Positions 4,852 to 24,903 of a stretch of DNA of 25,200 nucleotides are shown piece after piece (within the stretch, counting starts at the first letter, position 1; every line of letters begins with the position of its first letter). Source of the stretch: a virus. The position numbers and the translations under genes are program-made. The notes beneath the pieces were generated by a model, which did no database searches, had not been told where the DNA came from, and saw only the letters and a program-made list of their open reading frames with translations. The DNA lies in the IMG/VR virus record IMGVR_UViG_3300031758_003960, positions 1 to 25,200 of that record. One strand, 5' to 3'.

Positions 4852-4881
4852 CAAAAATAAAAAAATAACTGAGTAGTTATT
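4852..4881 (-). terminator. Terminator overlapping the stop codon of the 409-residue gene
   Basis: On the minus strand AATAACT pairs with AGTTATT around ACTC, followed by TTTTTATTTTT. The stem is short and AT-rich, and it contains the TAA stop of the gene ending at 4877. Confidence 0.65.
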
Positions 4882-6796: not shown

Positions 6797-6817
6797 AGTT
6801 TAGACTCCAATTTAGTA

Positions 6818-6825
6818 TATTTATC
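6818..6825 (-). promoter_or_regulatory. T4-type late promoter box GATAAATA
   Basis: The minus strand reads CTTCGATAAATATACTAAA, matching TATAAATA at seven of eight positions. The same CGATAAATATACTAAA string occurs before the tail gene at 18711. It serves the unit 6796-4877. Confidence 0.75.
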
Positions 6826-6830
6826 GAAGA

Positions 6831-7970
6831 TTAAAATAATAACATCGCAAATTCTGGACATAATTTCTCAAAACTTGTATTTCTAATTTTATCAAGTTTA
6901 TCGATATATTCCAAAAATTTACCGTGATCATCATCGCTTTCTTTTAAAGAATAGACTAAATCCAATAACATTGGATAACTTTTAAATTTTTCTATTAATT
7001 TAGATTTACATGCACTTGATATATGATCGATCGCACAATCGCCGATGGCTTTTTGAAATATCAGTTTGGTATTATCACCCAATCGATTAGCATTAAAGGC
7101 AGATTGATGCCAGTCAACTAACTCATTTAGATAGTATAAATTTAAATATCCCCATGTACAATTAACGTTGAATAGATGATTTACAGGCATATTATCGATA
7201 TACCAATTGAGATTGCTTGTTACTTCAGACCAATTTGCACCTGTGCGTTGATAGTTAAATCGTTCGCCAATATCATCGATACTAAAATATAATTCAACTA
7301 ATTGACATTCACTCCATATTTCTAATACTCGATCGGATACTCTTGTAGTTCCATTAACGTTATAACATATACGCAGATCTGCTAACCCTTTAACAGATTT
7401 AATTTGCTCTAATAGATCTATGTGTGTAGTGGATAATAAAGGATCCCCGCCACCATGAAAATGAATATTTTTTATTTCTGATAAAACTGCTGGGTTATTT
7501 AATTTAATTTGATTAAATTTTTCATGTTTAAATTTGATAATATCTGTCTGGGGATAAATTTTCTCATAATCTGATATCCACGCGGTGCTATTATTTGGTC
7601 CGCATATTATGCATTTTAAATTACATAAATTACCTACACTGTAGTCAATGCTGACTGGGCTTGTTAGATTGATGTTAGTGTCTTTTCTGTATTGCTCGTA
7701 TAGTTCTTTAGAACTTAAACGTCTGCTTTTAAGACCGTGAGTTTCTTCATGGTAACATCTATGGCATTGGGGAATTGGTTGATCATTCTCTACTAATTTT
7801 TTTAATTCCTGATGTTCTGGGCTATCCCATACTTCCGATATATCTAATCTATCAGATGTTTTTATAAATCCGTCGAAATACGAGCAGGGATTGTATGCAA
7901 TTTTGCCGTTTGCAGACCAAATGGCGAGATTTTTATAAATCTCATAGCAGAAATATTTTTTATTCTGCAT
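6831..7970 (-). CDS. Radical SAM enzyme with N-terminal twitch cysteines
   Basis: This 379-residue protein has the radical SAM motif CNLKCIIC (C116, C120, C123). Instead of a C-terminal auxiliary domain it has four cysteines before the core (C8, C29, C69, C72, the last two in CHRCYHEE). That matches the N-terminal-twitch type of radical SAM protein. The SAM-contact motif is HGGGDPLL (172-179), with Asp where Glu is usual in GGEP. A conserved SIDD strand follows later (about 236-239). The substrate is unknown. The gene overlaps the SDR-like gene upstream by 11 bases. It is visibly AT-richer than its neighbours (15 G/C in bases 6841-6900), which suggests recent acquisition. It is one of three radical SAM genes here, and resembles the one at 20804-22300 in layout. 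Confidence 0.9.
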   Translation of the reverse strand: MQNKKYFCYEIYKNLAIWSANGKIAYNPCSYFDGFIKTSDRLDISEVWDSPEHQELKKLVENDQPIPQCHRCYHEETHGLKSRRLSSKELYEQYRKDTNINLTSPVSIDYSVGNLCNLKCIICGPNNSTAWISDYEKIYPQTDIIKFKHEKFNQIKLNNPAVLSEIKNIHFHGGGDPLLSTTHIDLLEQIKSVKGLADLRICYNVNGTTRVSDRVLEIWSECQLVELYFSIDDIGERFNYQRTGANWSEVTSNLNWYIDNMPVNHLFNVNCTWGYLNLYYLNELVDWHQSAFNANRLGDNTKLIFQKAIGDCAIDHISSACKSKLIEKFKSYPMLLDLVYSLKESDDDHGKFLEYIDKLDKIRNTSFEKLCPEFAMLLF

Positions 7971-7972: not shown

Positions 7973-8493
7973 AGTTTTTCTATGCCAATTATTGGTATAT
8001 TAACTTTACTGTCTAATATCCACTTAATCGCATTGGCTATTTCGATTGTATCTAACCAGTCAGTGTGTTCCTGTTTACCATCATTCAATCCGCCCACAGT
8101 TATGTGTGTAGTTTTAAATTTACCAGAACACATGCTTAAACTCATATCTCTAAGGGCACGTTTTTGCACACTGTATAAGGGAAAAAAACTATTACGACCT
8201 TCATACTCCGCTGTGCTACCTACGTTAAAAACATAGCCTTCTGTCCAAAGTTCACGAGTAATTTCTAAGATTTTTTGTTGGGCACCACCTGATATAAAAC
8301 TGCTGTTGATTAATACATTATAATTTACAATATTTTTCTTAAAATGCTCCTCATCAGATAATTCCCACATTCTTAAATCATATCCTGTTGTTCGGCAGGC
8401 AAAATCAGCTGAGGGAAATACTTGTTTAATAGCACGAGCAACAGTAAAGTCTTGAGGATTTCCGGTGCATAGTATTTTATAATTATTCTGCAT
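7960..8493 (-). CDS. SDR-like (Rossmann-fold) protein, possible oxidoreductase
   Basis: This 177-residue protein resembles a short-chain dehydrogenase/reductase. A first beta strand and glycine turn is YKILCTGNPQDF (5-16), VLINSS lies at 60-65, VGST at 91-94 (candidate catalytic Ser93), and YSVQK at 107-111 gives the YxxxK catalytic pair. ITVGGLNDG (131-139) sits where SDRs have their PG-loop. It is shorter than the usual 240-260 residues, and the cofactor loop lacks the normal TGxxxGxG pattern, so activity and cofactor are uncertain. It overlaps gp41 by 11 bases upstream and the radical SAM gene by 11 bases downstream; both overlaps contain the same 13-bp sequence. Joint action with the radical SAM enzyme is inferred from the coupling. 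Confidence 0.75.
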   Translation of the reverse strand: MQNNYKILCTGNPQDFTVARAIKQVFPSADFACRTTGYDLRMWELSDEEHFKKNIVNYNVLINSSFISGGAQQKILEITRELWTEGYVFNVGSTAEYEGRNSFFPLYSVQKRALRDMSLSMCSGKFKTTHITVGGLNDGKQEHTDWLDTIEIANAIKWILDSKVNIPIIGIEKLNAE

Positions 8494-8495
8494 TA
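8483..8495 (-). repeat. 13-bp direct repeat, upstream copy, at gp41/SDR junction
   Basis: The sequence TAATGCAGAATAA occurs again here, with the same NAE-stop/MQN reading. The copies are 523 bases apart. Confidence 0.9.
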
Positions 8496-9877
8496 TTCTT
8501 AAGTCCAGCTAGCATACTTTTTAATTTACTACTGTCCACACCGGCCTGTATCTTGGGAGAATCTTCTGATGGTGTTACACTACTGCCTGTTTTGATCTGG
8601 CTTAAGATGTTTGTTGCTCCAACTCCACGTAGGCCGCTTTCCTGTGCCTCTTCACCTGGATCAGTGATGCGCAGAGTTTCTAAATCATACTCTAGATCCA
8701 CCTTCATGCCTACGCCACTTGAACTACGTGTCTTCATAAGTTGTAGTTGATAGCGACCACGCTCACGCATAGCACGGCTTGTAAAGATACCAAACACGTT
8801 GTCTGCTGTGTTAATCTTACTCAAGCCACCTGCGATATGGCTATGATCAAATTCGATTTCTTCTACTGCACCACGATTCAACTGTGATGCTGTGATCATT
8901 AAAATGTTAAGTTCTTTAGCTAGATTACGTAGTTCTTCTGATACATATTTGTCTTTGACAAACAGATCATTTGGACTGACTTTAGCACTGACCGGCATGA
9001 CCAAATCTAAATAGTCTACCATGATAAAATCTAATTTTTTACCTGTCTGTATCTGTAATTCTTTAAGATAACTACGTATCTGATTTACGTTTGATTGTGC
9101 TGGCATATACTTGATACGCAGGCTACCTGACTTTTTACCAGTCATCTTGATCTTCATCTCAACAGTGTCTAATTCTTTAAACACTTCTTTAGTTGAAACG
9201 TTGGCTACCATACTATCCATACGCATAGCACAAAGTCCTTCACTCAACTCTAGACTTAGATATACGCCGTTGAGTCCCTGTGTAACCCAATTGATACTGA
9301 TGTTCTGCATGAACAGACTTTTACCTGAACCAGATCCACCCGCAAAGATGTTTAGTTCACCACGGTTCATACCACCAAACAAACGCTTGTCTAAAGTTGG
9401 CCAACCTGTTGATACTTGTCCGTTGTTGCTCTTGATTGCCATCAAACGAGCTCTAGGATCTTCAAAGTATTCTGTGCCCAAATCTTTCGTCAGACTGATC
9501 TGCACTGCATCTTTGATCAGTTTCTCTACAGGGTCATACTCACCCTTTTCCAACATGTCTGCAGCTTTAAGGATAGCACGTTCTAGTTCATTACGTTTGG
9601 TAAAGCCTTCAAACTCTGCCAAGAACCAACTGTAGTGATCTTCTGACAGGTCTGGCACGTGTTTGCATTCAACCCCTGTGACTGCCTTGACCTGTTCAGC
9701 AGTGGGCATGGCTTTGTGATCATCTGTGTGTGTTTTGATAAACTTAGCTACATCACGTAAGGACCTATCAAAGTTTTCTGGATTATAGATGTTCTGCACA
9801 CGCACATAACTCTGTGCGTCTTGTAGCATCATTTCTAAAAATAGTTTCTGTAGTTCTGGAGAGTATTCTTTTGTCAT
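8483..9877 (-). CDS. 41: Replicative DNA helicase (T4 gp41/DnaB type)
   Basis: This 464-residue protein is a hexameric RecA-fold helicase that unwinds DNA 5'-3' at the replication fork and works with the gp61 primase. The N-terminal domain covers about 1-140. The ATPase domain begins at GGMNRGELNIF, with Walker A AGGSGSGKS at 179-187. Walker B is FIMVDYLD at 284-291, and the ASQLNRG segment (about 335) is a typical DnaB motif. T4 gp41 is 475 residues, so this is full length. It follows the primase gene after 6 bases. A TATAAT box with a TTGAAT -35 at 17-bp spacing ends 9 bases before its ATG, but lies inside the end of the primase gene. The C-terminal codons form part of a 13-bp repeat shared with the next junction. 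Confidence 0.96.
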   Translation of the reverse strand: MTKEYSPELQKLFLEMMLQDAQSYVRVQNIYNPENFDRSLRDVAKFIKTHTDDHKAMPTAEQVKAVTGVECKHVPDLSEDHYSWFLAEFEGFTKRNELERAILKAADMLEKGEYDPVEKLIKDAVQISLTKDLGTEYFEDPRARLMAIKSNNGQVSTGWPTLDKRLFGGMNRGELNIFAGGSGSGKSLFMQNISINWVTQGLNGVYLSLELSEGLCAMRMDSMVANVSTKEVFKELDTVEMKIKMTGKKSGSLRIKYMPAQSNVNQIRSYLKELQIQTGKKLDFIMVDYLDLVMPVSAKVSPNDLFVKDKYVSEELRNLAKELNILMITASQLNRGAVEEIEFDHSHIAGGLSKINTADNVFGIFTSRAMRERGRYQLQLMKTRSSSGVGMKVDLEYDLETLRITDPGEEAQESGLRGVGATNILSQIKTGSSVTPSEDSPKIQAGVDSSKLKSMLAGLKNNAE

Positions 9878-9883
9878 ATATAG

Positions 9884-10915
9884 TTAATTATACAGTTTCT
9901 TTTTCATCAATTCAATCTTGAGTTTGCTCGTCTGTTTGCTGTCTAAGATAGACTTTAGCACAAACAACTTGCCATATTTACATACTGCTTCATTGATGTC
10001 TTTTGAAGTTTCTAACCATACAGGAAAACTTACACTCCATCCGTATTCTATAGCATTGTTAATCATCCGAGCACCAGCACGATCCTTGTCTGCTACTACG
10101 ATAACTTCACGACCTAATGATTCAATTATATCTGCTTGTGTTTCATTACATTCATTGTTCAGCACTGCTACCCCATCTACGCTCATCGCATCAAACGGTC
10201 CTTCACAGACTATGACAAATTTGCTGTCTACCAGTTGATTGTTCATGTTAAAAACAAAGTTGGGTTCATAGTGACTATAGTATTTTGGTTTAACTCCATC
10301 AGCAAATGCTCTTGATGTATAGCCAATGGTCCGACCTTGCCAAATACAGGGGATAATCACACGCTGATGTAGGCTATGATCTGTTGAGTCAGTCCAAAGA
10401 AAATCATATTTTTGTAAATCAATTTTACGATTTTTAACATAGTCAACTGCCGAATTTAATAGTCCAGGAACATTTTGAAAGTTATCCAAGATATGAAATG
10501 ACAAGAACTGTTGGAAACTTATAGCACCTTCTGGTAAGTCACGGGCTTTGAATTCAATACGTTCTTCTTCATCTTCCTGTTTAACCTCTTCAGGATTAAC
10601 CAATTTACGGACACGTATTGCTTCAATAACCAACCGTTTGATGTCTGTGTCATCTGCACCTAACCATTTTAATAACTTACGGAATTTAAATGTTAAGTGT
10701 CGACCAGGTTGATATGATGCTTTGAAGTTACAGTTGAAACAGTGATAGCTGACACTGCCATCTGGATTGGCAGTCAAGCCACCACGACCACGGGTATCTG
10801 CTGTTTCACCGTTATGATGACAGCAAGGTGCGTTGAAGCTGGTCCAACCACTGGGTGTGGTCTTCTTCTTAGCTGGTAATATGCTTTTTATAAAGTCTGA
10901 GATAATGTTCAGCAT
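9884..10915 (-). CDS. 61: DNA primase (T4 gp61 type)
   Basis: This 343-residue protein makes the short RNA primers for lagging-strand synthesis. An N-terminal zinc ribbon is visible: CCHH at 31-34, then CFNC at 59-62. The TOPRIM catalytic core follows: E238 in VCEGPFDAMSVDG and D276/D278 in VVADKDRAGARM. T4 gp61 is 342 residues. It is next to the helicase gene, as in T4, and the two proteins form the primosome. Its ATG is preceded by a near-consensus sigma70-type promoter whose -10 box ends just 6 bases upstream, so the mRNA should be leaderless. Confidence 0.95.
   Translation of the reverse strand: MLNIISDFIKSILPAKKKTTPSGWTSFNAPCCHHNGETADTRGRGGLTANPDGSVSYHCFNCNFKASYQPGRHLTFKFRKLLKWLGADDTDIKRLVIEAIRVRKLVNPEEVKQEDEEERIEFKARDLPEGAISFQQFLSFHILDNFQNVPGLLNSAVDYVKNRKIDLQKYDFLWTDSTDHSLHQRVIIPCIWQGRTIGYTSRAFADGVKPKYYSHYEPNFVFNMNNQLVDSKFVIVCEGPFDAMSVDGVAVLNNECNETQADIIESLGREVIVVADKDRAGARMINNAIEYGWSVSFPVWLETSKDINEAVCKYGKLFVLKSILDSKQTSKLKIELMKKKLYN
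9887..9915 (-). promoter_or_regulatory. Possible sigma70-type promoter before gp41
   Basis: The minus strand has TTGAAT, 17 bases, then TATAAT, and the gp41 ATG 9 bases later. It overlaps the end of the primase coding sequence, where TATAAT also encodes Tyr-Asn, so it could be chance. Confidence 0.35.
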
Positions 10916-10960: not shown

Positions 10961-11653
10961 CTAGAGACCGTAGGTGGCCTTAGTATTGTTGTAATTTTGT
11001 AGTACCTCACCAGCTGTAAGCGCACGATTATATATGTGTACCTGCCCAATCCTACCTCGGAGCAGATTGCCAGCACCAAATGCGGCTAAGTTCGTAGAAC
11101 CGTTGCCTGAGTGTGCTGTTTTGTTAGCAGTGTATGTGCTGTCCTGGGCACCATTTAAATAGAGAGTCATGCCGACAGTAGTATTAAAAGTCAGAACCGC
11201 ATAATACCAAGTGCTGAGACTGAGATTAGCAGTACTAGGATAGGCAGTATAAACACCCCAATTGGCATGGCCACAATACAATTTTTGAGTACTGGCCATA
11301 AACATAAAATGTCCGCCTGTGTCACTGCTGACTAAATTATTATCATTAAAACCATTAAGATAAAACCAAACGGATTTAGTATAATTTGTAGTTGGTACTA
11401 CTCCTGTTTTAGAACCTGTACCGTATTGTGTTGTTCCGTTGAAGGTAAAATAACTTGGCGAGCCTAATGTATATGTCGGACTATTGACTAAAGTTATATT
11501 TGCTGTGTTAGGCGAACTATCTGCCCAATTAGTGCCAGAACCGCTGTAGGACACTGAATCTAGCCACATGGTCAAATTGGCCTGCAAAATACCCGTAGGA
11601 GTGCTGCCGTCTTTAATCGTTCCACCAAGAATTGTTCCGCCAATGATCTGCAT
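10961..11653 (-). CDS. LamG/concanavalin-like adhesin with shared N-terminal tag
   Basis: This 230-residue protein has a jelly-roll lectin domain of the LamG/concanavalin A type at about 25-225. Typical signs are FTFNGTTQYGTGS, KSVWFYLNGF, WYYAVLTFNTTVGMTLYLNG, and the end GRIGQVHIYNRALTAGEV followed by the LQNYNNTK tail. Such domains bind sugars, so this is a likely receptor-binding part at the fibre tip. The first 13 residues (MQIIGGTILGGTI) share the pattern MxIxGxTxxGxxI with the next two adhesins. It is the last gene of the fibre block and overlaps the glycine-rich adhesin by TAATG. It ends in YGL like the 242-residue paralogue. Confidence 0.88.
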   Translation of the reverse strand: MQIIGGTILGGTIKDGSTPTGILQANLTMWLDSVSYSGSGTNWADSSPNTANITLVNSPTYTLGSPSYFTFNGTTQYGTGSKTGVVPTTNYTKSVWFYLNGFNDNNLVSSDTGGHFMFMASTQKLYCGHANWGVYTAYPSTANLSLSTWYYAVLTFNTTVGMTLYLNGAQDSTYTANKTAHSGNGSTNLAAFGAGNLLRGRIGQVHIYNRALTAGEVLQNYNNTKATYGL

Positions 11654-12813
11654 TATAGTCTCACTATGCTGATATAACCAGCGGTGTTATTATAGAAGCC
11701 TAGGTTAGTGATAGCTGCACCATTGAATGTGCTGTCACGATCAAATTGTCCGTCACTGGTCGCTACACTGGTAGCATTTGCATCAATATAGCTGCCGCCG
11801 CCGCCACCTGAATCTATAGCTGGGTTCGCACCACTGTAAGTACCACCACCACCTGAGTATCCACCTCCACCACCACCTGTGATTGGACCGGCGCCGCCGC
11901 CTCCACCAAATCCACCAAAACTTGTAGCAGGTGGGGGGTAGGCCGTAGCACTTATACCCCCCACTGCTTTGAATTGTATGCTGTTACCTGCTCCACCGCC
12001 CTGACCGCCACTGGTAAGGAAACTGGTATTACTTGACCAACCCGTGCCGGCATTCCAAACAAGGCCGTTGCCTGACCAACCACCGCCACCGCCACTGTCA
12101 TAGCCATTGTTGCTGATTGTGCCATTAACATTCACATGTGTATTACCACCTAGGCCATTTACGCCGCCAGGAGCACCCACACGATTTGCTGTAATAGTTG
12201 CTCCACCATTACCAGCACTATTGCCACCACGGCGAGTAGTTGTACCATATCCGCCCGGAAATATCACAGTGTTACTGCTCCAAGTTCCACAAGCACCACC
12301 GCCACCTGCTATCACCAACGGAGTGACATTAGCGAATCCCACGCTGGCGATGTTGCCTAACATGACAAAACTACCGCCACCGCCCCCTGGACTGCTGAAA
12401 CCTGTGGTAGAGGTATTGGCACTAGGCTGTCCTACTACCAAAGTAATCTTTTGTCCTCGCTGTAGATTAAACACACTGCTAATTACAGCACCACGTCCAA
12501 ATGCGTTGGATGCTAGAACATTACTGGTCCAACTGTTGGCTATACCGCTGCGACTACCTGCGGCTATGATCTGATAAGGTCCTGTGCGTGGAACAGTCCA
12601 GATTTGGAATCCACGCCAATCGTTAGGCACTGTGAAATATTCTGTATTGGTTATCCAAGTGTTGCCTGCATTGCTGTAGATATTATACAAGTTGCCCAAT
12701 GTAGGACCACCTGCACCAACGATGCTTGACGTAAAGGTAAAGGAACCAAATGGGTATAGATCGCTTTGATCGTATATGCTGGTACCGTAAATAGTTGCGC
12801 CTTGGATTATCAT
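11653..12813 (-). CDS. Glycine-rich adhesin, gp38-like in style
   Basis: This 386-residue protein begins with the shared tag (MIIQGATIYGTSI). Residues 20-95 look like a small beta domain (FTVPNDWRGFQIWTVP region). From about 110 to the end it is a series of glycine-rich segments separated by variable loops: PGGGGGSFVML, AGGGGACG, DSGGGGGWSG, FGGFGGGGGAG, GGGGGGYSGGGG and DSGGGGGSYIDA. This matches the glycine-rich family seen in ALK-type receptors (Pfam Gly_rich) and recalls the polyglycine sandwich of T-even adhesin gp38, in which loops between glycine strands bind the receptor. The exact relation to gp38 is not shown. It is coupled to both adhesin genes by ATGA and TAATG overlaps. Confidence 0.85.
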   Translation of the reverse strand: MIIQGATIYGTSIYDQSDLYPFGSFTFTSSIVGAGGPTLGNLYNIYSNAGNTWITNTEYFTVPNDWRGFQIWTVPRTGPYQIIAAGSRSGIANSWTSNVLASNAFGRGAVISSVFNLQRGQKITLVVGQPSANTSTTGFSSPGGGGGSFVMLGNIASVGFANVTPLVIAGGGGACGTWSSNTVIFPGGYGTTTRRGGNSAGNGGATITANRVGAPGGVNGLGGNTHVNVNGTISNNGYDSGGGGGWSGNGLVWNAGTGWSSNTSFLTSGGQGGGAGNSIQFKAVGGISATAYPPPATSFGGFGGGGGAGPITGGGGGGYSGGGGTYSGANPAIDSGGGGGSYIDANATSVATSDGQFDRDSTFNGAAITNLGFYNNTAGYISIVRL

Positions 12814-13538
12814 AATCCGTATAATCCTCTATTAGCATTGTAATTTTTTAGCACCTGTGCGTCAGACAGTGCGATGTTGTAAAGTCTAGTTATACCTATT
12901 CTACCATTGAACCATTGTGCATATTCGCCGCCATTATACGATCCAATATATAGATTAGCTGAGGTGTTGAGTATGCTTGAAAAACTGTGTGAAGTTGATC
13001 CTATACTACTTCCATTGATATATGTTTCTAAACTATTAGTTGCTATATTTTTCCAAACATAAACCACTTGCACCCAAGTGTTTAACACAGTTTGGTAGTT
13101 TGAACTGTTTACAACTGTTGTGCCATTACCAATTTGAGCATATACAATACCGGTGTTATTAGTTCTAATACTGTATGACACATCAGCTGACAGACCACCT
13201 GGATCAAATTTACCTAATATTACGCCAGCACTACCTGTTTTAAAAGCAGTAGTATTAAACCATGCTTCCATAGTCCAATCACCAGTGCCGGGTTCTAGTA
13301 AAGCATTGTCAGCAATGGTGACCTGTGACGAAGTTCCGTTATAATCAAAATAAGGGCTAGTGTAGGTAATGTTAGACATAGTACCGTTACGAGCATTGTC
13401 AGATAAGTCATATACTGTTGTACCTGAACCTGGATAACTTGAAATATTACTAGGGTCGTAATATAACACCAGTCCGTCAGTTACGTATCCAACATCAACT
13501 ATATAAGTGCCTGTGAGTGTTACGCCTGATATCAGCAT
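12810..13538 (-). CDS. LamG-type adhesin, paralogue of the 230-residue one
   Basis: This 242-residue protein has the shared tag (MLISGVTLTGTYI) and then a LamG domain at about 22-235. Its signs are GLVLYYDPSNISSY, YFDYNGTSSQVTI, WTMEAWFNT, WVQVVYVWKN and FNGRIGITRLYNIALSDAQV, with the end KNYNANRGLYGL. The domain probably binds a surface sugar. It differs from the other LamG adhesin through most of its length, so the pair may target different receptors. It starts 2 bases after the stop of the large fibre gene and overlaps the glycine-rich gene by ATGA. Confidence 0.88.
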   Translation of the reverse strand: MLISGVTLTGTYIVDVGYVTDGLVLYYDPSNISSYPGSGTTVYDLSDNARNGTMSNITYTSPYFDYNGTSSQVTIADNALLEPGTGDWTMEAWFNTTAFKTGSAGVILGKFDPGGLSADVSYSIRTNNTGIVYAQIGNGTTVVNSSNYQTVLNTWVQVVYVWKNIATNSLETYINGSSIGSTSHSFSSILNTSANLYIGSYNGGEYAQWFNGRIGITRLYNIALSDAQVLKNYNANRGLYGL

Positions 13539-13540
13539 GG

Positions 13541-16500
13541 TTAGCCTAAGTATGTCACTGACCAGTTGTCGTTTTGGTCAAAGGTCACATTACCTGTTAA
13601 TATATTAGCACTTAGGTATTCACCTGCCGCCATTATAACAGTACCGCCTGTGCCAAAGTGTGTGGCTGTACCTGTGCTGGCATCAGCCTCCCAGAAACAG
13701 ACAATATTACCACTGCTGTTTATTCCGTTCTTTAATACCGCAATCTGGCTGGTGATATTAGTATTAACACGAGCAACTAAACTTACTTGATATATACCTG
13801 CCACAGGTGCTGTAAACTTACCATTGGTATCATTGTAATAACCGCCTTGGTTAAATACCACTAAGGTTTGTGGCGATTTGAGGTTAACGTTGCTGGTTGT
13901 TTGTGCTGGGCCAGCAGTTCCATTTACACGGAACGCTGGGCGAGTTGGCATAACAGCACCAAATCCACCAACTGTGATATTACCTGGGAATGTTACATTA
14001 CCATAGATGTCAAATGTCGTTACATAGGTATTGGCAATGATACGTGTGTTAGCTTCGTTACCTACTAGGTTACCAACTGTGGCATTACCTGAGACTGCTA
14101 ATGTCGCCAATGTGCCAACTGCTGTGATATTTGTTTGGCTAGCTGTAGCAATAGTGCCAATAATGTTCTGTGCTAGGACGTTACCAGAAGAATTGATCGT
14201 GCCTGCATTGACCACACTGGCAGTCACGTTGGCCACTGTGTTTAGGCTATATGCTGATACGGCATTAGCGATTAAGTTACCTGTGGTGTTTAATTGAGCT
14301 GCGAATACCGTGCCAGCTACACCAATACCACCCATGACACGCAGAGCACCTGTGGCTGTGTTAGTAGCTGCTGTGGTAGCTTGTATATTAGCTGAGGTTG
14401 TCTGTACGTTGCTTGACTGTACAGCACCACCATATAGTGGGAGATATGTTGCTACCTGTACGTTGCTGTAACTGCCGCCACCTGCTGTGACCTGTGTCGT
14501 TCCATCAGCGAAGGTCAATACTCCACTGACCCCTAAACGGATATTTGCTATGTTGCCTGAGTATGTTGGCAAGTATGTGGCTACGTTTACGTTGCTATAT
14601 GAACTAGGTAATCCAGTCAATTGACTGCCATTACCAAATAAGTATTGAGCAGTGACATTACCAGCAACTGTTATGTTTGAAGCAGTTACTACACCAGTGT
14701 AGGTTGGTAGATATGTGGCTACTTGGACATTACTGTAACTACTACCAGTTACCACGCCAGTCAAGAACGCACCATTGCCGTATAGGTAACCTGCGGTTTG
14801 TATATTACCAGCTGTGAATAATCTTGGAACTGTGACGTTACCCAGATTGTCAAACACACTCGAATAACTACCAGCTTGTAAGGTCACATTAGGACTTGTG
14901 CCTGTAACATTACCAGTAATACTAATGTTACCTGTGATATATGCGGCTGTGATATTACCAGTTGTGTTAATTGTTGCTGTACTAAGATATACGGCTACGT
15001 TGACGTTACTGTATAAGTTATAACCTTGGCTGTTTAAATAAGCCGCGGTATTAACATTACTGTAATTGGTTAATCCATTGGTAGTAATCAATGCCGCTAC
15101 ATTAACATTACCGTAGTTTTGGAAGCCCATCGTTTCAGTATAAGCTTTGACATTAATATTTCCATAGATTGATTGGCTAGCCACACTGTCAACATATCCC
15201 TTCATACCAATGTTTGCAGTAGATACACTGTTGTCTACATAACCTTTCATACCAAGATTAGCTGATGTAACATTGGCGTTATAGGCATAGTTACTAAGAT
15301 TAGTGAACACTTCAACTTGAACGTTGCTGTAATTACTACTTGCGGCAATACCAGTTAGTAGAGCACCATTGCCAATGAAGTAACCTGCTGTGACATTTCC
15401 TGTGACATAAGCAGTTGGTAATATGACATTACCTGTGGTATCAAATACGCTGTTATATGATCCTGCTGTTAGGGTTACGTTTGGTGTCGTACCTAGCAAG
15501 TAGTCTACACCCACATTGCCTGTGTGGCTTGGTAGGTAACTTGAGACGTTAGCATTGCCATAATTTTGGAATCCCATTGATTCAGTGTAGGCTTTGACGT
15601 TTACGTTGCTGTAGTTAGTACCACCGCCACCTACATTAGCGTTCCACGCATACAGTGATAGGTTTGCTGTGGCTGAGGTTAGATAACTGTTAGTGGACAA
15701 GTATGCCGCTACATTAACGTTACCGTAGTTAGCAAAACCCATAGTTTCAGTATAGGCTTTGACATTTATATTACTGTAGGTCACAGGAATTACGATAGTA
15801 GACACTGCATTATCCACATAACCTTTCATGCCCACATTAGCCGCCGTGATTGCCGCTGATTGTATTGAGTTGCCTTGATCTATGTATCCAATAACGCCAA
15901 CATTAGCAGCCGCAATCTGTTGTGACTGTATGGTGTTGGCAAACGCTATGGCCGCATTGGCCGCCGCTATGTTATCGTTAATTGCTGTGATAGTTGGGCT
16001 GGTAATATTACCTAATACTAGGTCATCATATATGGCATCAGTAAAGTCTACTGTGGTACCTACGTCTTGTGTTACATTACTGAACAAACGCCATTGATTA
16101 GCACTGGCATCACGGATTAAGCCAGTGTGCTGTAATACTGAATTTATATTACGATGTGCTGTGATGCCAAGATCCACGCTGTTATCAGGATTTAAATCAG
16201 CAAGGTTGATGATATTATCGCCAATGGCTACATTATTAACACTGATATAAGTCACATTACCGTTGACGAATAGATTACCTTCGATCGTTACATTACCACC
16301 AAATGTTTTTGCTGTGCTGTCTGCAAGATACGTAGATACTTTAGTATTACTATAGTATGATTGGCTGTCTACATATCCTTTCATACCTACGTTAGCAGCT
16401 GTAATACCAGTAGTCTTTGCATATCCTTCTGTGGTTAAATATGCCGTAACATTTATATTACTGTAGGTACTACCTGTATAAGCTGTAGTTTGAGTGGTAT

Positions 16501-18214
16501 TGTCGGCAAATTTAATACCAGTATTGACTTTTAGATTACCGTCAGCCGCACTGATCCTTAGATCGCCCATGTAAATACTAGTTGGACTCACATATAGATC
16601 ACCAGTCACTCTTAGGTCGCCTGCTACGGTCATGTCACCACCAGAACTGATACCAGTGTCAGCACTCAATCCACGTGACCAGTAGACTGGATTACCATAG
16701 CTGTTTTCTACAGTAGTATAGCCTATTGCGGTTCTACCAAACTCTACACTGAACTTGTTATCTGATATAGTAGCGGTAGTACCTGCATTGTTTATTATAT
16801 TATTATTTACATACCAAATAGCATTATCGATATCATAGGTTAGGATGTTTGGTAATGCTTCTCGGTTTAGGTAGTCATAAACAGCCTGGTAACCACCAAC
16901 AGATCCTCCTGACCCGCTAGCTATTAACCAACCGTAATCGTTAGTAGATTGATAGTCTAACAACCAATCCTGCCATTCTTGTGCTGATGTCAGAGCTGGC
17001 AATGCCGGAGTATAACTCCAGCTGGTCGACATATTAGCAGTCCAATCAATGGTTATACTAAATGTAGATCCACTGTTACCAGTCCAAGTATAGGTATTTG
17101 ATCCAACTGTTGGAGCTGCTGGTCCACGTGTGATATCAGGGCCTCCGGAATAGCCACGTATTAAGTATGCGACATTACCTAGGTCGCTGGCTGTGGTAGG
17201 TATAAGGTCTATGCGCCTGAAGGTAGCACCTGTGGGTGAACCTGTGTAAGATTGACCAATGTAGTTACTATTATAGCCTGTAGGATCTGTGGCATAGTAT
17301 GGATAGTATGAGTCATAACCCACACCACCATCGGTAATGGTGATGCTGGCGATATTACCAGTGGTATCTAAGGTACAGACAGCGTTAGCAAATCTGCCAC
17401 CTGACGTATCTAATGCTGAAAAACCTGGTGTAGCGCCTCCAATTATGAGACTATTTTCATAAAATTTAGCACTTCTTAGTTGATCCCATACGATAGGAGC
17501 AGTAGTCCAACTCTTGAGGTTAGCTGTATAACCAAAGTTATTGTCTACATAATAACTGCGAATCTGGGCGAAATCTGTTGGTGCTTCAAATTGCACATTG
17601 GCGAATCCCACCGCACCTGTTGGTGGACTGATCGCCGCACCTGTAGTTACTAATCTACCACCTTCTGTAGTAATGGTAGCATCACCTAAGAAAATAGTAT
17701 TACCACTTAGATATAGATCTCGCCAACGATGTGTGTTATCTCCTAAACTGTAGGTAACATTAGCACTTGGGACGATATTTCCATCAAAGCTGGTTAGATA
17801 TGCACGAACATTAGCGTTGTCATAACTTGTTCCGCCTGCTACGCTGTCCACGTAGCCTTTCATGCCTAGGTTGGCTGCCAGGATTACTGAGGCTTGTATG
17901 GTATTGCCTAGATCTATATATCCTTTGATGCCTATATTGGCTGATGCTATTTGTGCTGATTGTATAGTATTGGCCTGATCGACATAACCTTTCATGCCTA
18001 AGTTGGCCACAGTTATGTTAGCGTTTACAGACGAGATTTGATTGTTGATGCTCGTGGTATTTGTTGTAGTAGCGTATCCACCCACGGTACTGCCATCATG
18101 AACATACAGCGTCCAATCGGTGGTATTGACTACCAACTCGCCAGCCGCACCAGTATAACTACTGATCGCTGTTGAATTACCGCGTCTTAACTGTAATCTT
18201 CTTGGTGCAGTCAT
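13541..18214 (-). CDS. Giant tail fibre: Mtd-N-like start, repeat shaft, C1q-like tip
   Basis: This 1557-residue protein begins with LQLRRGNSTAISSYTGAAGE and LYVHDGSTVGG, matching the N-terminal domain of the Bordetella phage major tropism determinant (Mtd_N), found on many fibres. The shaft is repetitive. About fifteen copies of a YSNVNVAAYLPTYSG-type unit and eight of LGMKGYVDS-type units occur. Three copies of GNGALLTG-type motifs and three of an AGSYNSVFDTTGNVILP-type unit also occur. A less repetitive insert lies around residues 210-480. The last 136 residues (PAFRVNGTAG, then GGYYNDTNGKFTAPVAGIYQ and EYLSANIL) form a C1q/TNF-like trimer head, a likely receptor-binding tip. The coding DNA shows internal repeats that could recombine. 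It starts in a TAATG overlap with the 165-residue gene and is followed by three adhesins. Confidence 0.92.
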   Translation of the reverse strand: MTAPRRLQLRRGNSTAISSYTGAAGELVVNTTDWTLYVHDGSTVGGYATTTNTTSINNQISSVNANITVANLGMKGYVDQANTIQSAQIASANIGIKGYIDLGNTIQASVILAANLGMKGYVDSVAGGTSYDNANVRAYLTSFDGNIVPSANVTYSLGDNTHRWRDLYLSGNTIFLGDATITTEGGRLVTTGAAISPPTGAVGFANVQFEAPTDFAQIRSYYVDNNFGYTANLKSWTTAPIVWDQLRSAKFYENSLIIGGATPGFSALDTSGGRFANAVCTLDTTGNIASITITDGGVGYDSYYPYYATDPTGYNSNYIGQSYTGSPTGATFRRIDLIPTTASDLGNVAYLIRGYSGGPDITRGPAAPTVGSNTYTWTGNSGSTFSITIDWTANMSTSWSYTPALPALTSAQEWQDWLLDYQSTNDYGWLIASGSGGSVGGYQAVYDYLNREALPNILTYDIDNAIWYVNNNIINNAGTTATISDNKFSVEFGRTAIGYTTVENSYGNPVYWSRGLSADTGISSGGDMTVAGDLRVTGDLYVSPTSIYMGDLRISAADGNLKVNTGIKFADNTTQTTAYTGSTYSNINVTAYLTTEGYAKTTGITAANVGMKGYVDSQSYYSNTKVSTYLADSTAKTFGGNVTIEGNLFVNGNVTYISVNNVAIGDNIINLADLNPDNSVDLGITAHRNINSVLQHTGLIRDASANQWRLFSNVTQDVGTTVDFTDAIYDDLVLGNITSPTITAINDNIAAANAAIAFANTIQSQQIAAANVGVIGYIDQGNSIQSAAITAANVGMKGYVDNAVSTIVIPVTYSNINVKAYTETMGFANYGNVNVAAYLSTNSYLTSATANLSLYAWNANVGGGGTNYSNVNVKAYTESMGFQNYGNANVSSYLPSHTGNVGVDYLLGTTPNVTLTAGSYNSVFDTTGNVILPTAYVTGNVTAGYFIGNGALLTGIAASSNYSNVQVEVFTNLSNYAYNANVTSANLGMKGYVDNSVSTANIGMKGYVDSVASQSIYGNINVKAYTETMGFQNYGNVNVAALITTNGLTNYSNVNTAAYLNSQGYNLYSNVNVAVYLSTATINTTGNITAAYITGNISITGNVTGTSPNVTLQAGSYSSVFDNLGNVTVPRLFTAGNIQTAGYLYGNGAFLTGVVTGSSYSNVQVATYLPTYTGVVTASNITVAGNVTAQYLFGNGSQLTGLPSSYSNVNVATYLPTYSGNIANIRLGVSGVLTFADGTTQVTAGGGSYSNVQVATYLPLYGGAVQSSNVQTTSANIQATTAATNTATGALRVMGGIGVAGTVFAAQLNTTGNLIANAVSAYSLNTVANVTASVVNAGTINSSGNVLAQNIIGTIATASQTNITAVGTLATLAVSGNATVGNLVGNEANTRIIANTYVTTFDIYGNVTFPGNITVGGFGAVMPTRPAFRVNGTAGPAQTTSNVNLKSPQTLVVFNQGGYYNDTNGKFTAPVAGIYQVSLVARVNTNITSQIAVLKNGINSSGNIVCFWEADASTGTATHFGTGGTVIMAAGEYLSANILTGNVTFDQNDNWSVTYLG

Positions 18215-18748: not shown

Positions 18749-19123
18749 ATGGAAGACAGTTACAAGAAACTCCTAGATCAATACCCTTTTATCAGCTACA
18801 TCACCTACGGCGGTAATGATTATATAGGAATCATACAGAATTCAGACGAAATCATCACCACTATCTATGACTATGCGGCTCTGCGCACTCTAGCACAAAA
18901 GAGTTTGTTTTTAGAGCTAGCAGATCAATGGTGGTGGGAAAGCAATAGGCTAGTGCCTATCAATGTATTTTTAAAGCAGGATTGGGTGGAATTCCGAGTT
19001 TGTTTGAAAACATTCAACAGCAAAGATGTAGAGATCAAACACGGACCTTATGTAAGCCTAAAAGAAATATCAAATAAACGTAGTAAAAGGCGTAGTATTA
19101 CACTGGTTCGCAAAGTAGGTTAA
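18749..19123 (+). CDS. Only plus-strand gene: small protein of unknown function
   Basis: This 124-residue protein begins MEDSYKKLLDQYPFISYITY. It reads as a compact, aromatic-rich folded protein (ADQWWWESNRLVPINVFLK, then FRVCLKTFNSKDVEIKHGPY) with a basic tail (SNKRSKRRSITLVRKVG). This regular composition, together with the lack of any competing minus-strand ORF, supports a real gene. It diverges from the fibre unit and converges on the DnaE-like gene, whose end it overlaps by 26 bases. No Shine-Dalgarno or clear promoter is seen on this strand. The family is not recognised. Confidence 0.75.
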   Translation: MEDSYKKLLDQYPFISYITYGGNDYIGIIQNSDEIITTIYDYAALRTLAQKSLFLELADQWWWESNRLVPINVFLKQDWVEFRVCLKTFNSKDVEIKHGPYVSLKEISNKRSKRRSITLVRKVG

Positions 19124-19670
19124 GATTTACCACAACCAGAGTCGCATAAGCTACAGCATGCGCCTTTTTAAAACTATATTCACCCTCAACCTTATCCCAC
19201 ACTGTATCTGCAACTTCCTTCCAAGTTTTGCCAACTAGATGTCGTTTACCTGGACGTATTACTGCTAGAAACATAGCCAAGCGTGGAATAGTATCCACAG
19301 GCTCTGGCATTTTAAGCAAGGTATCATAATGATTGTTGATATGAATTAGTTGGGAGCAAATCGCAGGATCATATAGCTTAGTCCAGTCTGGTTCCTGCAT
19401 GAGTGTAATCAAATGCGCTTCATCTCTGACTTGTTTATACACATGGACGTTTAATAAGTCTAGTTTCATATAGCCACGATCTTCTGCGGCATTATAATCT
19501 AAGCTGGCAGATCCTGTGAATGGATCTACGGGTATGTCTGTAGCATAAACACCAGTGTTATGACGAGTCAACTTACCATCTCTGATAATGCTTGCTGGTG
19601 TGACGTTTAACAAGCGTAATACCTGTTCACGATCAGCAAAGTCTATGTCAATATCACTTTTAAATTTCAT
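19098..19670 (-). CDS. Miniature DnaE (Pol III alpha)-like protein
   Basis: This 190-residue protein contains, in order, several landmarks of the bacterial C-family polymerase DnaE. SDIDIDFADREQVLRL (5-20) matches the palm PDFDMDF motif that holds two catalytic aspartates (here D8 and D10). RHNTGVYATDIPV (36-48) resembles the GRHACG segment. DRGYMKLDLLNVHVYKQV (64-81) resembles the KFDFLGL segment with the third aspartate (here D71). LAMFLAVIRPG (131-141) resembles LAALVALYRPG. SFKKAHAVAYATL (166-178) resembles FNKSHAAAYAL. DnaE is about 1160 residues, so PHP, most of the fingers and the C-terminal domains are absent. Whether it polymerises DNA is unknown. It overlaps the zinc-finger gene by ATGA and the plus-strand gene tail to tail. 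Confidence 0.75.
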   Translation of the reverse strand: MKFKSDIDIDFADREQVLRLLNVTPASIIRDGKLTRHNTGVYATDIPVDPFTGSASLDYNAAEDRGYMKLDLLNVHVYKQVRDEAHLITLMQEPDWTKLYDPAICSQLIHINNHYDTLLKMPEPVDTIPRLAMFLAVIRPGKRHLVGKTWKEVADTVWDKVEGEYSFKKAHAVAYATLVVVNLNLLCEPV

Positions 19671-20368
19671 AAGCCTGCTTCCTTAAGGATGGTCTTAACC
19701 CATTCTGTGTCCGCTACATAATCTTGAAACTTACGTTGCCAGTATTCTGGATCAATCCAAGGAAGTATTATTCCAATCTGTTCTTCATTTAATCCATCAA
19801 GGAAATCAACACCGCTGGCACAGTTATAGACAATCCAAGGACTAACCCTGCCATTAGCGATATGATGGCAAATGCGATTAGCATTACCAAACCTAAAGTA
19901 ATCACTAAATCCGTTTTTAAACTCTCCCAATTCATCTGCATAATCCTGCATCTCCTTCAGAGCACGTTCAAGCGCATCTTGAACTGCTTCTTTACGCATA
20001 TATTGTTTTAAATATTCTAGATAGATCTTCTCATGACACCAATGATCAAGTTTTTTGTTTTCTTTGATCACATAGTCTATAAACATACGTGGATTAACAG
20101 CACGGATACCTACCATATGGCGACCAAATTTGACGAATGCACGGTAATAAGGACTGGCTACAAAGTCCACATATGACTTCATCTTGGCTGACCCCTGTGT
20201 GAGCTCATAAAAACGTAGATATGCTTGTAGACCAAACTGCACTCCAGTTTCTTTTTCCTGCTGCCAGCGACGTTTTTCTTCGCAGAGATGCGCCGCAAGA
20301 GTTGATTCCTTGCGGAATTCTTTGGCGCAATATTTACATTTATAGCTCGGCTTTAATTGATTTGTCAT
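19667..20368 (-). CDS. Protein with N-terminal zinc-finger-like motif, function unknown
   Basis: I use the ATG at 20368 (MTNQLKPSYKCKYCAKEF), giving 233 residues. A longer start at 20413 would overlap the upstream gene by 74 bases instead of 29. Residues 11-29 look like a zinc finger, C-x2-C-x12-H, with a cysteine two residues after the His as a possible fourth ligand. That spacing is not standard, so metal binding is likely but unproven. The remaining 200 residues are helical and aromatic, with LDHWCHEKIYLEYLKQYM and a conserved-looking end (WIDPEYWQRKF). It overlaps the DnaE-like gene by ATGA, so the two may act together in nucleic acid metabolism. No family is recognised. Confidence 0.78.
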   Translation of the reverse strand: MTNQLKPSYKCKYCAKEFRKESTLAAHLCEEKRRWQQEKETGVQFGLQAYLRFYELTQGSAKMKSYVDFVASPYYRAFVKFGRHMVGIRAVNPRMFIDYVIKENKKLDHWCHEKIYLEYLKQYMRKEAVQDALERALKEMQDYADELGEFKNGFSDYFRFGNANRICHHIANGRVSPWIVYNCASGVDFLDGLNEEQIGIILPWIDPEYWQRKFQDYVADTEWVKTILKEAGL

Positions 20369-20807
20369 CAAATCCGAGGTCTCTTGCCATGTCTGCAATA
20401 TCTCGTTTATCATTGATTTTCGCTAGTAGTTCTATTTCGTCTGATTTCATCGTAGGATATATCTTGGCCAAGAATTTTTGACTTTTGTTATCTCCCTCTT
20501 TCTTTTTTGCTTTCAACCAATAGTGGAACTGATTACCCATCTGTGGACTTACTGTAGTACATGTTAACCATTGTAACTTGGTATGGCGATTGATGTCAAA
20601 AAAGTGTTTGTTCACTCGTTCATTGGTGGCCATTAGATAATAGGCCTGCATATCACCACTGCCTGATACATTAGCACCGTATTTCAACATTAGATAAGTT
20701 GAAAAGCTCTTGCTCTGCTCATCAGTAAACTTGTCATAGTAAGCACGATCTTTGCGATCGAATGCAGCCATCTCGTTACCGATGTATAATGGATCTGGAT
20801 TATTCAT
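20340..20807 (-). CDS. Phage protein of unknown function, replication-region position
   Basis: This 155-residue protein begins MNNPDPLYIGNEMAAFDRKD. It is helical and aromatic (DKFTDEQSKSFSTYLMLKYG; NKHFFDINRHTKLQWLTC), ending in a charged helix (IADMARDLGFDDKSIKAEL). I considered a clamp-loader small subunit (gp62) because of size and neighbourhood, but could not match it to T4 gp62 by sequence. It overlaps the radical SAM gene by ATGA. A TATAAT box 5 bases before the ATG lies within that gene's last codons. Confidence 0.72.
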   Translation of the reverse strand: MNNPDPLYIGNEMAAFDRKDRAYYDKFTDEQSKSFSTYLMLKYGANVSGSGDMQAYYLMATNERVNKHFFDINRHTKLQWLTCTTVSPQMGNQFHYWLKAKKKEGDNKSQKFLAKIYPTMKSDEIELLAKINDKRDIADMARDLGFDDKSIKAEL

Positions 20808-22300
20808 GCTTTATTATAACACCTATTTCGATATTCTTCAAGCTCAGGAATATAGTCTTTTAATCGAATGTTTCTCGATTGATCTAATTTATCATTAAAT
20901 TCAAAAAATTCTTTAAGAATTTGCGTGTTAATTTTTGGATTTTCGTAATATGAGATCAATCCATCAATAAAACTTTTTAACAATTGGTCGTTTTTGTAAT
21001 AATTTAATTTGGTTATTTTGACTAATCTATCTTTTAATGTGTGATCAAAATAATTCAAAGGATTTAGTAAATCATCTTTAAATTCTGCTAAACTGCAATG
21101 AACTAATGTATTAGGAAATTCTTCATCTAAAAATTTCAATAATTGATCTAATCTACTTATAGTATAAATCGATACAACAACATTAAACACAACTTTATGT
21201 TTATGTTCTGTCAGATAATGTGTATTTTCTATGATAGTATCCCATTCGCTAGGCCATCTGACATAATGATTTATTTTTTCAAATCCGTCAATGCTTACAA
21301 TAAAGTGTAAATTAGTAAAATGTTTGAACAATTCTTTTAACTTGTCACTGAATTTTACAGCATTGGTATTGATTAGAAATTCAAAATCTACATTATTTTC
21401 ATCGATACATTTTTGTAAGAATGTATATACGTCTGGCATTGCTGTTGGTTCACCACCTGCTAGATATAATTTTTTTAAGTTATCAAATTTAACAAAATTA
21501 AAATTAGTGTGCGTAAACTTTTGATCTGCGTCGTGCAAACCAATTTTAATGTATTCTTTTTCTATTAGATTACTATTTCCAGGGTTACAGGATCTACATT
21601 GTAGATTACAGATGTTGCTAGGTCTTACTTCATAATAACTAGGAGTTTGTATATTGATTAAGTCATCTAATGATTTAAGATTTAACCTATTGGCCCACTC
21701 AATTGTTTCTTGTTGCCTGGCGCTGAGCATACCTTTATTTTCGTAATTATAACAACTTTGACAATGCTCTGGTATTAATTCACCAGACAACATTTTATTT
21801 CTTATTTTTAAATAATGTATATCTGAATTATAATTTTCTAACTTGTCTATGGTCGTGATTGGTTTAGACGATCTACAACAAACAGTTGTAGAACCATTTT
21901 GTACTAACAATTCAATGAAGGGGAATATACAAAAACTTTTATTAGTCTGAACTAATGATTCAAAGAATGCGATGTCTTTAGCTTCTTCAGTATTTTGATA
22001 AACTACAGGGATAGAAGAATTTTTTGCTACTTGTATTGTAGTATAAAATGCATCAGGATGTGACCAAGTCTCTTTGGGTTGATTTAAAATTATCAGAGTA
22101 TCAAAATTATCAATCAAATCTAATAATTTACCAAATTCTAAATCATAAACACTTGAATGATAATATCCTGTCGCGATCGGTAAATGTTCAATAATTAATC
22201 CATGGCAGACTGTATTATCTACTTTGGCTAATTCTCGCGTTTGTATATCAGTATCTCTGGTATTGTTGCCAAGACACAATATTTTTTTACTAAAACTCAA
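20804..22300 (-). CDS. Radical SAM enzyme with extra N-terminal domain and twitch cysteines
   Basis: This 498-residue protein has three parts. Residues 1-110 form a Rossmann-like domain of unknown role (KKILCLGNNTRDTD at 5-18; DTLIILNQPKETWSHPDAFY at 67-86). Cysteines at 124, 141, 142, 180 and 183 (EHCQSCYNYE) form an N-terminal twitch-like region. The radical SAM core has CNLQCRSC (C231, C235, C238), LAGGEPTAMPD (280-290) and VSIDGFEK. Layout resembles the 379-residue enzyme at 6831-7970, and the ILCxGN start of the N-domain resembles the SDR-like protein beside that enzyme. It starts with TTG right after the upstream stop, with AAAGGTAG before it. It is AT-rich (14 G/C in bases 21301-21360), suggesting acquisition. 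The substrate is unknown. Confidence 0.9.
   Translation of the reverse strand: MSFSKKILCLGNNTRDTDIQTRELAKVDNTVCHGLIIEHLPIATGYYHSSVYDLEFGKLLDLIDNFDTLIILNQPKETWSHPDAFYTTIQVAKNSSIPVVYQNTEEAKDIAFFESLVQTNKSFCIFPFIELLVQNGSTTVCCRSSKPITTIDKLENYNSDIHYLKIRNKMLSGELIPEHCQSCYNYENKGMLSARQQETIEWANRLNLKSLDDLINIQTPSYYEVRPSNICNLQCRSCNPGNSNLIEKEYIKIGLHDADQKFTHTNFNFVKFDNLKKLYLAGGEPTAMPDVYTFLQKCIDENNVDFEFLINTNAVKFSDKLKELFKHFTNLHFIVSIDGFEKINHYVRWPSEWDTIIENTHYLTEHKHKVVFNVVVSIYTISRLDQLLKFLDEEFPNTLVHCSLAEFKDDLLNPLNYFDHTLKDRLVKITKLNYYKNDQLLKSFIDGLISYYENPKINTQILKEFFEFNDKLDQSRNIRLKDYIPELEEYRNRCYNKA
20813..20841 (-). promoter_or_regulatory. Possible sigma70-type promoter before the 155-residue gene
   Basis: The minus strand has TTGAAG, 17 bases, TATAAT, then ATG after 5 bases. 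It lies within the end of the radical SAM gene, where TATAAT encodes Tyr-Asn, so coincidence is possible. Confidence 0.35.
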
Positions 22301-23445: not shown

Positions 23446-24903
23446 TTATTGCCAATCGGTCTTTTCAACGACGAATGGGTAGTTAGCCTCCTTGTAAAAT
23501 TGCTTTCTTTTAGTTAAGTGCCGTTTGGCAAACTTGCAGGTACTTGTTATATCCCAGATCTGGACGAAATCTTTGTCTTCAGCTTTACGAATACCTCGAC
23601 CAATTGACTGGATAACTCGAACAAAGCTCTTACCAGGCTCAATGAGCACAAGATTAAAAATACGAGGAATATTGATGCCAACAGCGGCAACACCGTAAGT
23701 GGCAACAATAACTTTGTCGTCCATTTCTGCAACTTCGTCATATTGTTCTTTTCTATCATCTGCTTTAGTACCTCCTGATACAAATACTGAATCCTTTATG
23801 CGTTCTACCAAGGCTTTTCCTGGTGCTAGACGATCAACTAACACTAAAGTATTACCTGTCTTGCGGATCGACTCTACTAGCTTGGCTATATAATCCAATC
23901 GGCCTTCTGTTTCTAACAGATATCTCAACTCACTTTGATAATCCTTATATTCTACATGATCAACTAGTTGTAGGACGTTTACATGACAATTAGCTAATAC
24001 TCCTTGCTCTTGTAATTCACTGGCACTTAAACGGCCAATAACGTCTCCTATTGAGCACTTTAGGCTGATAAATTCGTAATCTTCTTTAGGAATCGTGCCG
24101 GTTAATCCCCACCTGATAGGTATATGTGCCATTACACCAGTAAGTAGAGTTTTAAGCGCATCTGCTTTGGCCATGTGTACTTCGTCAACCATAACACAGA
24201 CAACGTCTTGTAAGAATTCACCAATAGTGACATCTACTTCATGATTGCGTGATCCTTTGAGCAAGATATTTAGGCTCTGCCAAGTGCAGATAGTATGTGT
24301 GCGTCCAAATTCTTTACGGTCACCAAAGTAGACCCCAACATCTAATCCCATGTTGATATAGTCAGCTTCTGTTTGTGTGACCAGACTCTTGTTTGGAACG
24401 ATGACGATAGTGCGTCCATGTGGTTCACAGCTATAACTTAATGCGGCTGTGATTAGGGTTTTACCTGCACCTGTAGCTACTTCTTGTAGGCATTGTGGAT
24501 TAGCTAGGAACTTGTTGATGATCTCAACTTGATAATCTCTGAGCATGATCGGCTGTCCTGCCATTGGGTGCTTGGCTGGCCAAGTGATGTGACTGAATGT
24601 ATTTTCATCTACTTGATTAAACTCATATTGAGTTTTATAATCTCTGATATCTTCTACTTCTAAATTATATCCCTGCTTGTCTAGGTAAGCAATAATCTCT
24701 GGCAGTAGGTTGATATAAGTGCTACCACCTAGTTGGAAGAAAGCCACTTTACCATCCCACCGCCCTAGACGTACCGCAGGTAGATAACGAGCTCCCGGAA
24801 TCTCATATTTGAACTTATTTGATAGTTCCTTACGTTCATGTAAGTCTAGTCCCTCTATCTTTACATTCACTTCATCTTTAATTAATAATTTTGCTGTGGC
24901 CAT
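23446..24903 (-). CDS. uvsW: UvsW-type recombination helicase
   Basis: This 485-residue protein is a superfamily 2 DNA helicase. UvsW unwinds branched recombination and origin R-loop intermediates in T4 and shifts replication from origin- to recombination-driven. The N-terminal DNA-binding part covers about 1-110 (AVRLGRWDGKVAFF at 43-56). The helicase motifs follow: QVEIINKF, Walker A ATGAGKT at 143-149, DEVH at 240-243, TGT at 268-270, and motif VI QSIGRGIRKAEDK near 433-445. T4 UvsW is 503 residues. Its start codon follows a TATAAT/TTGGAA promoter with a 7-base gap. Confidence 0.95.
   Translation of the reverse strand: MATAKLLIKDEVNVKIEGLDLHERKELSNKFKYEIPGARYLPAVRLGRWDGKVAFFQLGGSTYINLLPEIIAYLDKQGYNLEVEDIRDYKTQYEFNQVDENTFSHITWPAKHPMAGQPIMLRDYQVEIINKFLANPQCLQEVATGAGKTLITAALSYSCEPHGRTIVIVPNKSLVTQTEADYINMGLDVGVYFGDRKEFGRTHTICTWQSLNILLKGSRNHEVDVTIGEFLQDVVCVMVDEVHMAKADALKTLLTGVMAHIPIRWGLTGTIPKEDYEFISLKCSIGDVIGRLSASELQEQGVLANCHVNVLQLVDHVEYKDYQSELRYLLETEGRLDYIAKLVESIRKTGNTLVLVDRLAPGKALVERIKDSVFVSGGTKADDRKEQYDEVAEMDDKVIVATYGVAAVGINIPRIFNLVLIEPGKSFVRVIQSIGRGIRKAEDKDFVQIWDITSTCKFAKRHLTKRKQFYKEANYPFVVEKTDWQ

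Follow-up and report, generated by a model that had tools for sequence, protein, structure and literature searches.

The 190-residue protein studied here and the PHROG 11127 protein of related phages are probably the two halves (C-half and N-half, respectively) of a split, miniaturised C-family nucleotidyltransferase core, which would assemble non-covalently. The C-half gene lies in a stretch of viral DNA of 25,200 nucleotides (IMG/VR record IMGVR_UViG_3300031758_003960; the window). The window is a 25 kb fragment, and the N-half of its own phage lies outside it. Each half is homologous to a different part of the bacterial DNA polymerase III alpha subunit (DnaE), and the boundaries of the two are complementary. 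The chance that the pair is a true minimal polymerase of family C, with two subunits, about 360 residues and one active site built from both halves, and that it works beside a family B replicase, was considered to be about even.

The initial annotation had recognised five DnaE landmarks, in DnaE order, in the window protein. All five quoted motifs were found in the 190-residue ORF, and the results showed that they are real and homologous. The alignment of the C-half family (A2; 63 members, down to 33% identity to the window protein) was compared by hhalign with an alignment of nine DnaE proteins from phage records (A3), several of which are partial and one of which (CAKLQF020000001) may be a bacterial dnaE. 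The match covered residues 34-142 with E=1e-9, and the best of 60 column-shuffled controls reached E=0.02. In a smaller first comparison, residues 99-178 (E=1.3e-5, with the FKKAHAVAYA end as the convincing part) and the DIDID segment (E=0.016) were found as separate local alignments. The DnaE fingers profile PF17657 scored above its curated cut-off at the C-half locus in three records and matched 12 of the 63 members at E<=1. The Pfam search with the window protein itself gave zero matches, and PDB sequence searches with this protein and with profiles A1 and A2 returned nothing. The absence of a match to PF07733 had been named beforehand as evidence against the relationship. This was literally the outcome for the window sequence, but it was overruled by the profile–profile and structural comparisons. 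The direct searches were empty because HMMER fails across large deletions, which hhalign and Foldseek bridge.

The AlphaFold2 model of the C-half (pLDDT 93.7, pTM 0.81) was searched with Foldseek. The top 13 PDB matches were only Pol III alpha and PolC, with a probability of 1.0 for several of them and a TM-score by query length of up to 0.51. Phage DnaE was matched in BFVD with E down to 2e-4. The fold-search E-values against the PDB were modest (4e-3, the best for the C-half, and 1.3e-2), which for the C-half reflects its small size and extensive deletions; the evidence lies in the consistency of the matches. The profile and structure comparisons proposed with the initial annotation therefore both point to Pol III alpha, which upholds its assignment of the protein to the C family. 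The model also matched BFVD entry A0A249Y020 (probability 0.84), an unnamed viral protein of 374 residues. Its length is approximately that of both halves together, and it may be a relative in which they are fused, or one that has been reduced in another way.

Three catalytic aspartates are kept, as had been suggested, but the register given for them (D8, D10 and D71) was wrong. In the alignment with Taq DnaE, PDxDxDF has D463 and D465 as its first two aspartates, and KMDFLGL contains D618 (numbering counted from the alignment). We take these three to be the catalytic aspartates of Taq DnaE, and their counterparts in the window protein are D6, D8 and D71. The E. coli equivalents are D401/D403/D555, and H760 of the E. 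coli KSH motif has been proposed as the steric gate (PMC8485763). D10 is also invariant, yet it is the third aspartate of the motif equivalent to PDxDxDF. Residues D6, D8, D10, H37, G40, K69, D71, R139, P140, H171 and Y175 were identical in 63 of 63 C-halves (Table 1). In the model, strand 7-11 opens with D6 and D8, while D71 lies in strand 69-74. The C-half is under strong purifying selection, with dN/dS of 0.045-0.11 against 11 relatives.

Table 1. Features of the window around the putative C-half gene and within it.
Feature	Position	Strand	Remarks
Putative C-half of a split C-family core	19098..19670	-	190 aa, stop included in coordinates; PHROG 11778
DIDID (D6-D10), corresponding to PDxDxDF, with the first and second catalytic aspartates at D6 and D8	19641..19655	-	Taq alignment; invariant in 63
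H37-N-T-G40, counterpart of the DnaE HAxG element	19551..19562	-	hhalign; H37 and G40 invariant
K69-L-D71, with the third catalytic aspartate (D71) and its adjacent lysine (K69)	19458..19466	-	hhalign; invariant
R139-P140 of the RPG segment, edge of fingers	19251..19256	-	hhalign; invariant
F167-KKAHAVA-Y175, counterpart of FNKSHAxAY, with H171 at the position of the steric gate (E. coli H760)	19146..19172	-	hhalign, conservation, PMC8485763
Upstream neighbour, weak (sub-threshold) C2H2 zinc-finger Pfam match	19667..20413	-	PHROG 11058; in 191/202 related loci
Convergent neighbour, overlaps the 3' end of the C-half gene by 26 bp	18749..19123	+	PHROG 11637; in 186/202 related loci
Primase-type Toprim protein	9884..10915	-	Replication context
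DnaB-type replicative helicase	8483..9877	-	Replication context
UvsW-type helicase	23446..24903	-	Replication context

In the alignment of DnaE proteins, an invariant RGS (the GS motif of the palm) stands about 40 residues ahead of PDxDxDF. The window protein starts at PDxDxDF, and the GS motif is missing from it. When 14 records carrying the C-half were searched with PF07733, a second small ORF was found in 13 of them (E 1.4e-8 to 7.9e-13), and it matched only profile positions ~13-98, the GS part. A partner gene encoding GRGS accompanies the C-half in these 13 records. The family of this ORF is PHROG 11127, which is named 'DNA polymerase', as is PHROG 11778, to which the window protein belongs (E=3e-60, full length). 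N-half proteins have about 160-205 residues, typically ~170, and end in ...GVGRGSSVASYVLYLIGxHKINSxYYDLxIxEFL[KR] followed by the stop. GRGSS is almost invariant among them, GRGS is invariant in the 61 aligned members, and all 61 match PF07733. In most N-halves, R404 of the FERF motif is replaced by E. Against DnaE, hhalign gave E=7e-11 (A4) and 7e-8 (A5), with shuffled controls no better than 1e-3. The N-half model (pLDDT 92.9) had Pol III alpha as all of its top 12 PDB matches in Foldseek. It has scarcely any beta-strand around the GS motif, which is consistent with a need for the sheet of the C-half. The earlier suggestion of a complete minimal polymerase does not hold for the window protein, because a separate gene carries the portion of the palm with the GS motif. 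Nor would it be a polymerase of one-sixth size; it is better read as one half of a split core whose two parts together reach about one-third of the DnaE size.

Exactly 24 residues follow the GS match in 82 of 89 N-halves, and 23 or 25 in the others. On DnaE, the last residues of the N-half correspond to FERFLN (FERFIS, residue 407, in the Finch protein), and PDxDxDF begins at residue 414 of Finch DnaE, so the halves meet within about six residues and do not overlap. The C-half begins 0-20 residues ahead of DIDID. Splitting by an intein was considered and rejected, since these two boundaries leave no room for one.

A query made by joining the N- and C-halves of Phosso matched 200 places in 111 phage records. 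No fused form, that is, no single place covering 80% of the joined query, was found among 50,697 phage records. Both halves appear to be present at separate places in 89 of the 90 C-half records, a count which assumes that no record has more than two places in this search. Among the matches listed, the C-half records all had two places except PP728206, a partial record of 109 kb. In IMG/VR, the C-half was present on 10 of 15 large N-half contigs. No C-half was found on two long N-half contigs even at E<=10, and no N-half on one C-half contig of 216 kb; these contigs may be incomplete. The N-half was also absent from the contigs nearest to the window (24-87 kb), which is uninformative because the halves are often tens to hundreds of kb apart. 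Where measured, the distance between the two genes was 4 to 224 kb: ~4 kb in genome G006, 10-15 kb in genome G004, XacN1 and RAS14, 31-44 kb in 121Q, CBB and PA5oct, and 104-224 kb in the others. For 13 genomes, the distance matrix of the N-halves correlated with that of the C-halves (r=0.76; 0 of 5000 permutations), as co-inheritance predicts, although this alone does not demonstrate an interaction.

Relatives of the C-half were found in 90 deposited phage records, mostly of jumbo phages of the RaK2/121Q/CBB/PA5oct/Phosso/XacN1 groups, and in more than 500 IMG/VR stretches. A search for a cellular home of the family in a genome collection of 84,980 species returned only two matches: one on a MAG contig of 6.8 kb and one partial match at a contig end. 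Both are probably phage DNA. The first (positions 6263-6823 of the contig) was assigned to Bacteroidales and was probably binned with that genome. A viral scan with the SCTP-2 protein as query found no relatives. In Atu_ph07, the C-half occupies positions 6001-6576, but with the annotated start at 6082 the DIDID segment is left out, and two of the three catalytic aspartates are missing from the deposited protein.

The start of the C-half ORF in the window overlaps the stop of the upstream zinc-finger ORF (ATGA), and the gene downstream is convergent with the C-half in every annotated phage examined. The UvsW gene, the zinc-finger-like ORF and an ORF at 20340-20807 lie on one side of the C-half, and the convergent gene, the primase and the DnaB-type helicase on the other. 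The ORF at 20340-20807 was tried as T4 gp62, which would have made the locus mirror the T4 order 44-62-regA-43; hhalign gave a probability of 0.5%, and this idea was dropped. The N-half of CBB and 121Q adjoins topoisomerase II subunits, a chaperonin or head-morphogenesis gene and a gp44-type clamp loader, and that of Phosso adjoins a GroES-like gene and an AAA ATPase. A DnaQ-type exonuclease was above the cut-off in 8 of 13 genomes.

Other genes of the window were also noted. Three radical SAM proteins are encoded at 385-1230, 6831-7970 and 20804-22300, all on the minus strand; the last is present in just 26 of 202 related loci. A DUF6267 protein (4877-6106, minus strand, E=6e-111) contains KWDGSP, a sequence similar to KxDG, the motif around the nucleotidyl-lysine in ligases. 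Two concanavalin-like lectin (Laminin_G_3) proteins (10961-11653 and 12810-13538, minus strand) adjoin a repetitive protein of 1557 residues (13541-18214), and this set probably represents fibre or adhesin parts.

Bacterial replicative DNA polymerases of this type have more than 1,100 residues. The two halves together come to about 360 residues, each fragment being shorter than 220, which is about one-third of the size of DnaE. Between them, the GS motif, the triad, the lysine, the RPG segment and the steric-gate helix are all kept. The half alignments leave no residues for the thumb, the OB fold or the clamp-binding segment. The PHP domain profile PF02811 was unmatched in 13 genomes, with the control positive in 14 of 14. 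Of the fingers, RPG and FxKSHxxxYA are present, and the YQEQ and LRxxxGKK segment is absent from the halves; no third fragment carrying it was found in the 13 genomes. In DnaE, the incoming triphosphate may be bound by the LRxxxGKK segment together with arginines located between the halves, so the activity of the phage core may be impaired by their loss.

In the nucleotidyltransferase fold, the GS element holds the incoming triphosphate. We believe that the N-half would supply the N-terminal half of the palm with this element (GRGSS), and the C-half the metal ligands D6/D8/D71, the lysine, the RPG segment and the nucleotide-facing fingers helix with the steric-gate histidine. On the sequence evidence, the halves would associate without intein splicing and form a single two-metal active site for the addition of deoxynucleotides. 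That the metal ligands and the steric gate are conserved speaks for genuine chemistry on dNTPs. A core lacking the PHP, thumb, OB and clamp-binding parts and the YQEQ/LRxxxGKK segment would probably be slow and distributive. The missing thumb points to low processivity or a DNA-binding partner, for which the zinc-finger neighbour is a possible candidate. The enzyme would probably play an accessory role (gap filling, end or Okazaki processing, or translesion synthesis) beside the family B replicase, and the production of both halves may serve to regulate it.

A family B polymerase is also encoded in 12 of the 14 C-half records, in line with the remark of the initial annotation that T4-like phages normally use one. 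Its presence also suits a different explanation, in which the associated halves have no catalytic role and serve at the fork as a scaffold or decoy that binds, for example, the host polymerase, the clamp loader or the ends of primers; they would be a relic of an ancestral phage DnaE. The loss of the thumb and much of the fingers and the replisome genes nearby would agree with this. However, the metal ligands, the lysine, the steric gate and the GS motif are absolutely conserved while the rest has diverged to ~33% identity, and scaffolds usually lose such residues; we consider this explanation unlikely. A decoy role without catalysis, which had been offered for the window protein itself, is disfavoured by the same absolute conservation, which in this protein covers the triad, the lysine next to D71 and the histidine of the steric gate. 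Somewhat less probable still is a repurposed, non-templated nucleotidyltransferase acting in terminal transfer, on primers or ends, or in nucleotide or protein modification. The fold supports many such reactions (PMC11646218), and a core without a thumb would grip a template-primer poorly, but the RPG segment and the steric-gate helix of DnaE have been retained, and replication genes surround both halves. That the two proteins are independent degenerate pieces of DnaE with separate functions is very improbable: their genes lie far apart (up to 224 kb) in different neighbourhoods and a few contigs carry only one half, but the exactly complementary boundaries, the co-occurrence in 89 of 90 records and the parallel divergence stand against it.

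Family C polymerases are known as very large enzymes, single-chain or intein-spliced. A core of ~360 residues cut in the middle of the palm and kept in distantly related jumbo phages would approach the least protein around a C-family active site and, if the two-halves reading is true, would be a natural complementation system. It would also explain two 'truncated' or unexplained DNA polymerase annotations in some 90 deposited phage genomes. Two questions follow: what a C-family active site is capable of once the thumb, the PHP domain and most of the fingers are gone, and why phages with a family B replicase keep the split core under strong selection.

The two halves themselves are PHROG 11778 and PHROG 11127 (CBB gp287 and gp328), whose annotations present separate or truncated polymerases and not one enzyme. 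The N-half CBB_328 was named a 'truncated' Pol III alpha (PMC5259590), a Pol III alpha subunit was reported in Atu_ph07 (PMC6102473), and two Pol III subunits were listed for a Sinorhizobium jumbo phage (PMC11242549). Within the passages searched, the split goes unmentioned in the RaK2 paper, the MIJ3 paper, a jumbo-phage overview, a survey of phage polymerase swaps (PMC11348598) and surveys of bacterial C-family polymerases (PMC3919608, PMC12926913). No statement that PHROG 11778 and PHROG 11127 are complementary halves was found in the open literature, and the novelty of the two-halves reading is provisional.

Compared with known systems, the halves are most like bacterial Pol III alpha (DnaE; PDB 2HPI/3E0D from Taq and 2HNH from E. 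coli) and PolC in fold and motifs, sharing GS, DxD, the third D, the adjacent lysine, HxxG, RPG and FxKSHxxxYA with the steric-gate histidine. Unlike these enzymes, they have one-third of the size, are two polypeptides with genes far apart, and lack the PHP, thumb, OB and clamp-binding parts and the YQEQ/LRxxxGKK segment. The full-length DnaE of phages (PHROG 405; Finch, Pbunavirus and others) is likewise a phage-encoded C-family protein, and separate stretches of it are matched by the N-half (361-429) and the C-half (581-693 and 772-808). It is a single chain and the main polymerase, whereas phages with the split core mostly also encode a family B polymerase. Cyanobacterial DnaE is also encoded by two genes (PMC3919608), but it is split by an intein, which the phage halves lack. 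African swine fever virus PolX is a minimal viral polymerase of the nucleotidyltransferase fold with only palm and fingers (PMC11646218); it differs in being a single-chain family X enzyme with a repair role. The divPolA1 of Caudoviricetes (PMC11348598) is an extra reduced polymerase beside the regular replicase, as the split core may be, but belongs to family A and is a single chain.
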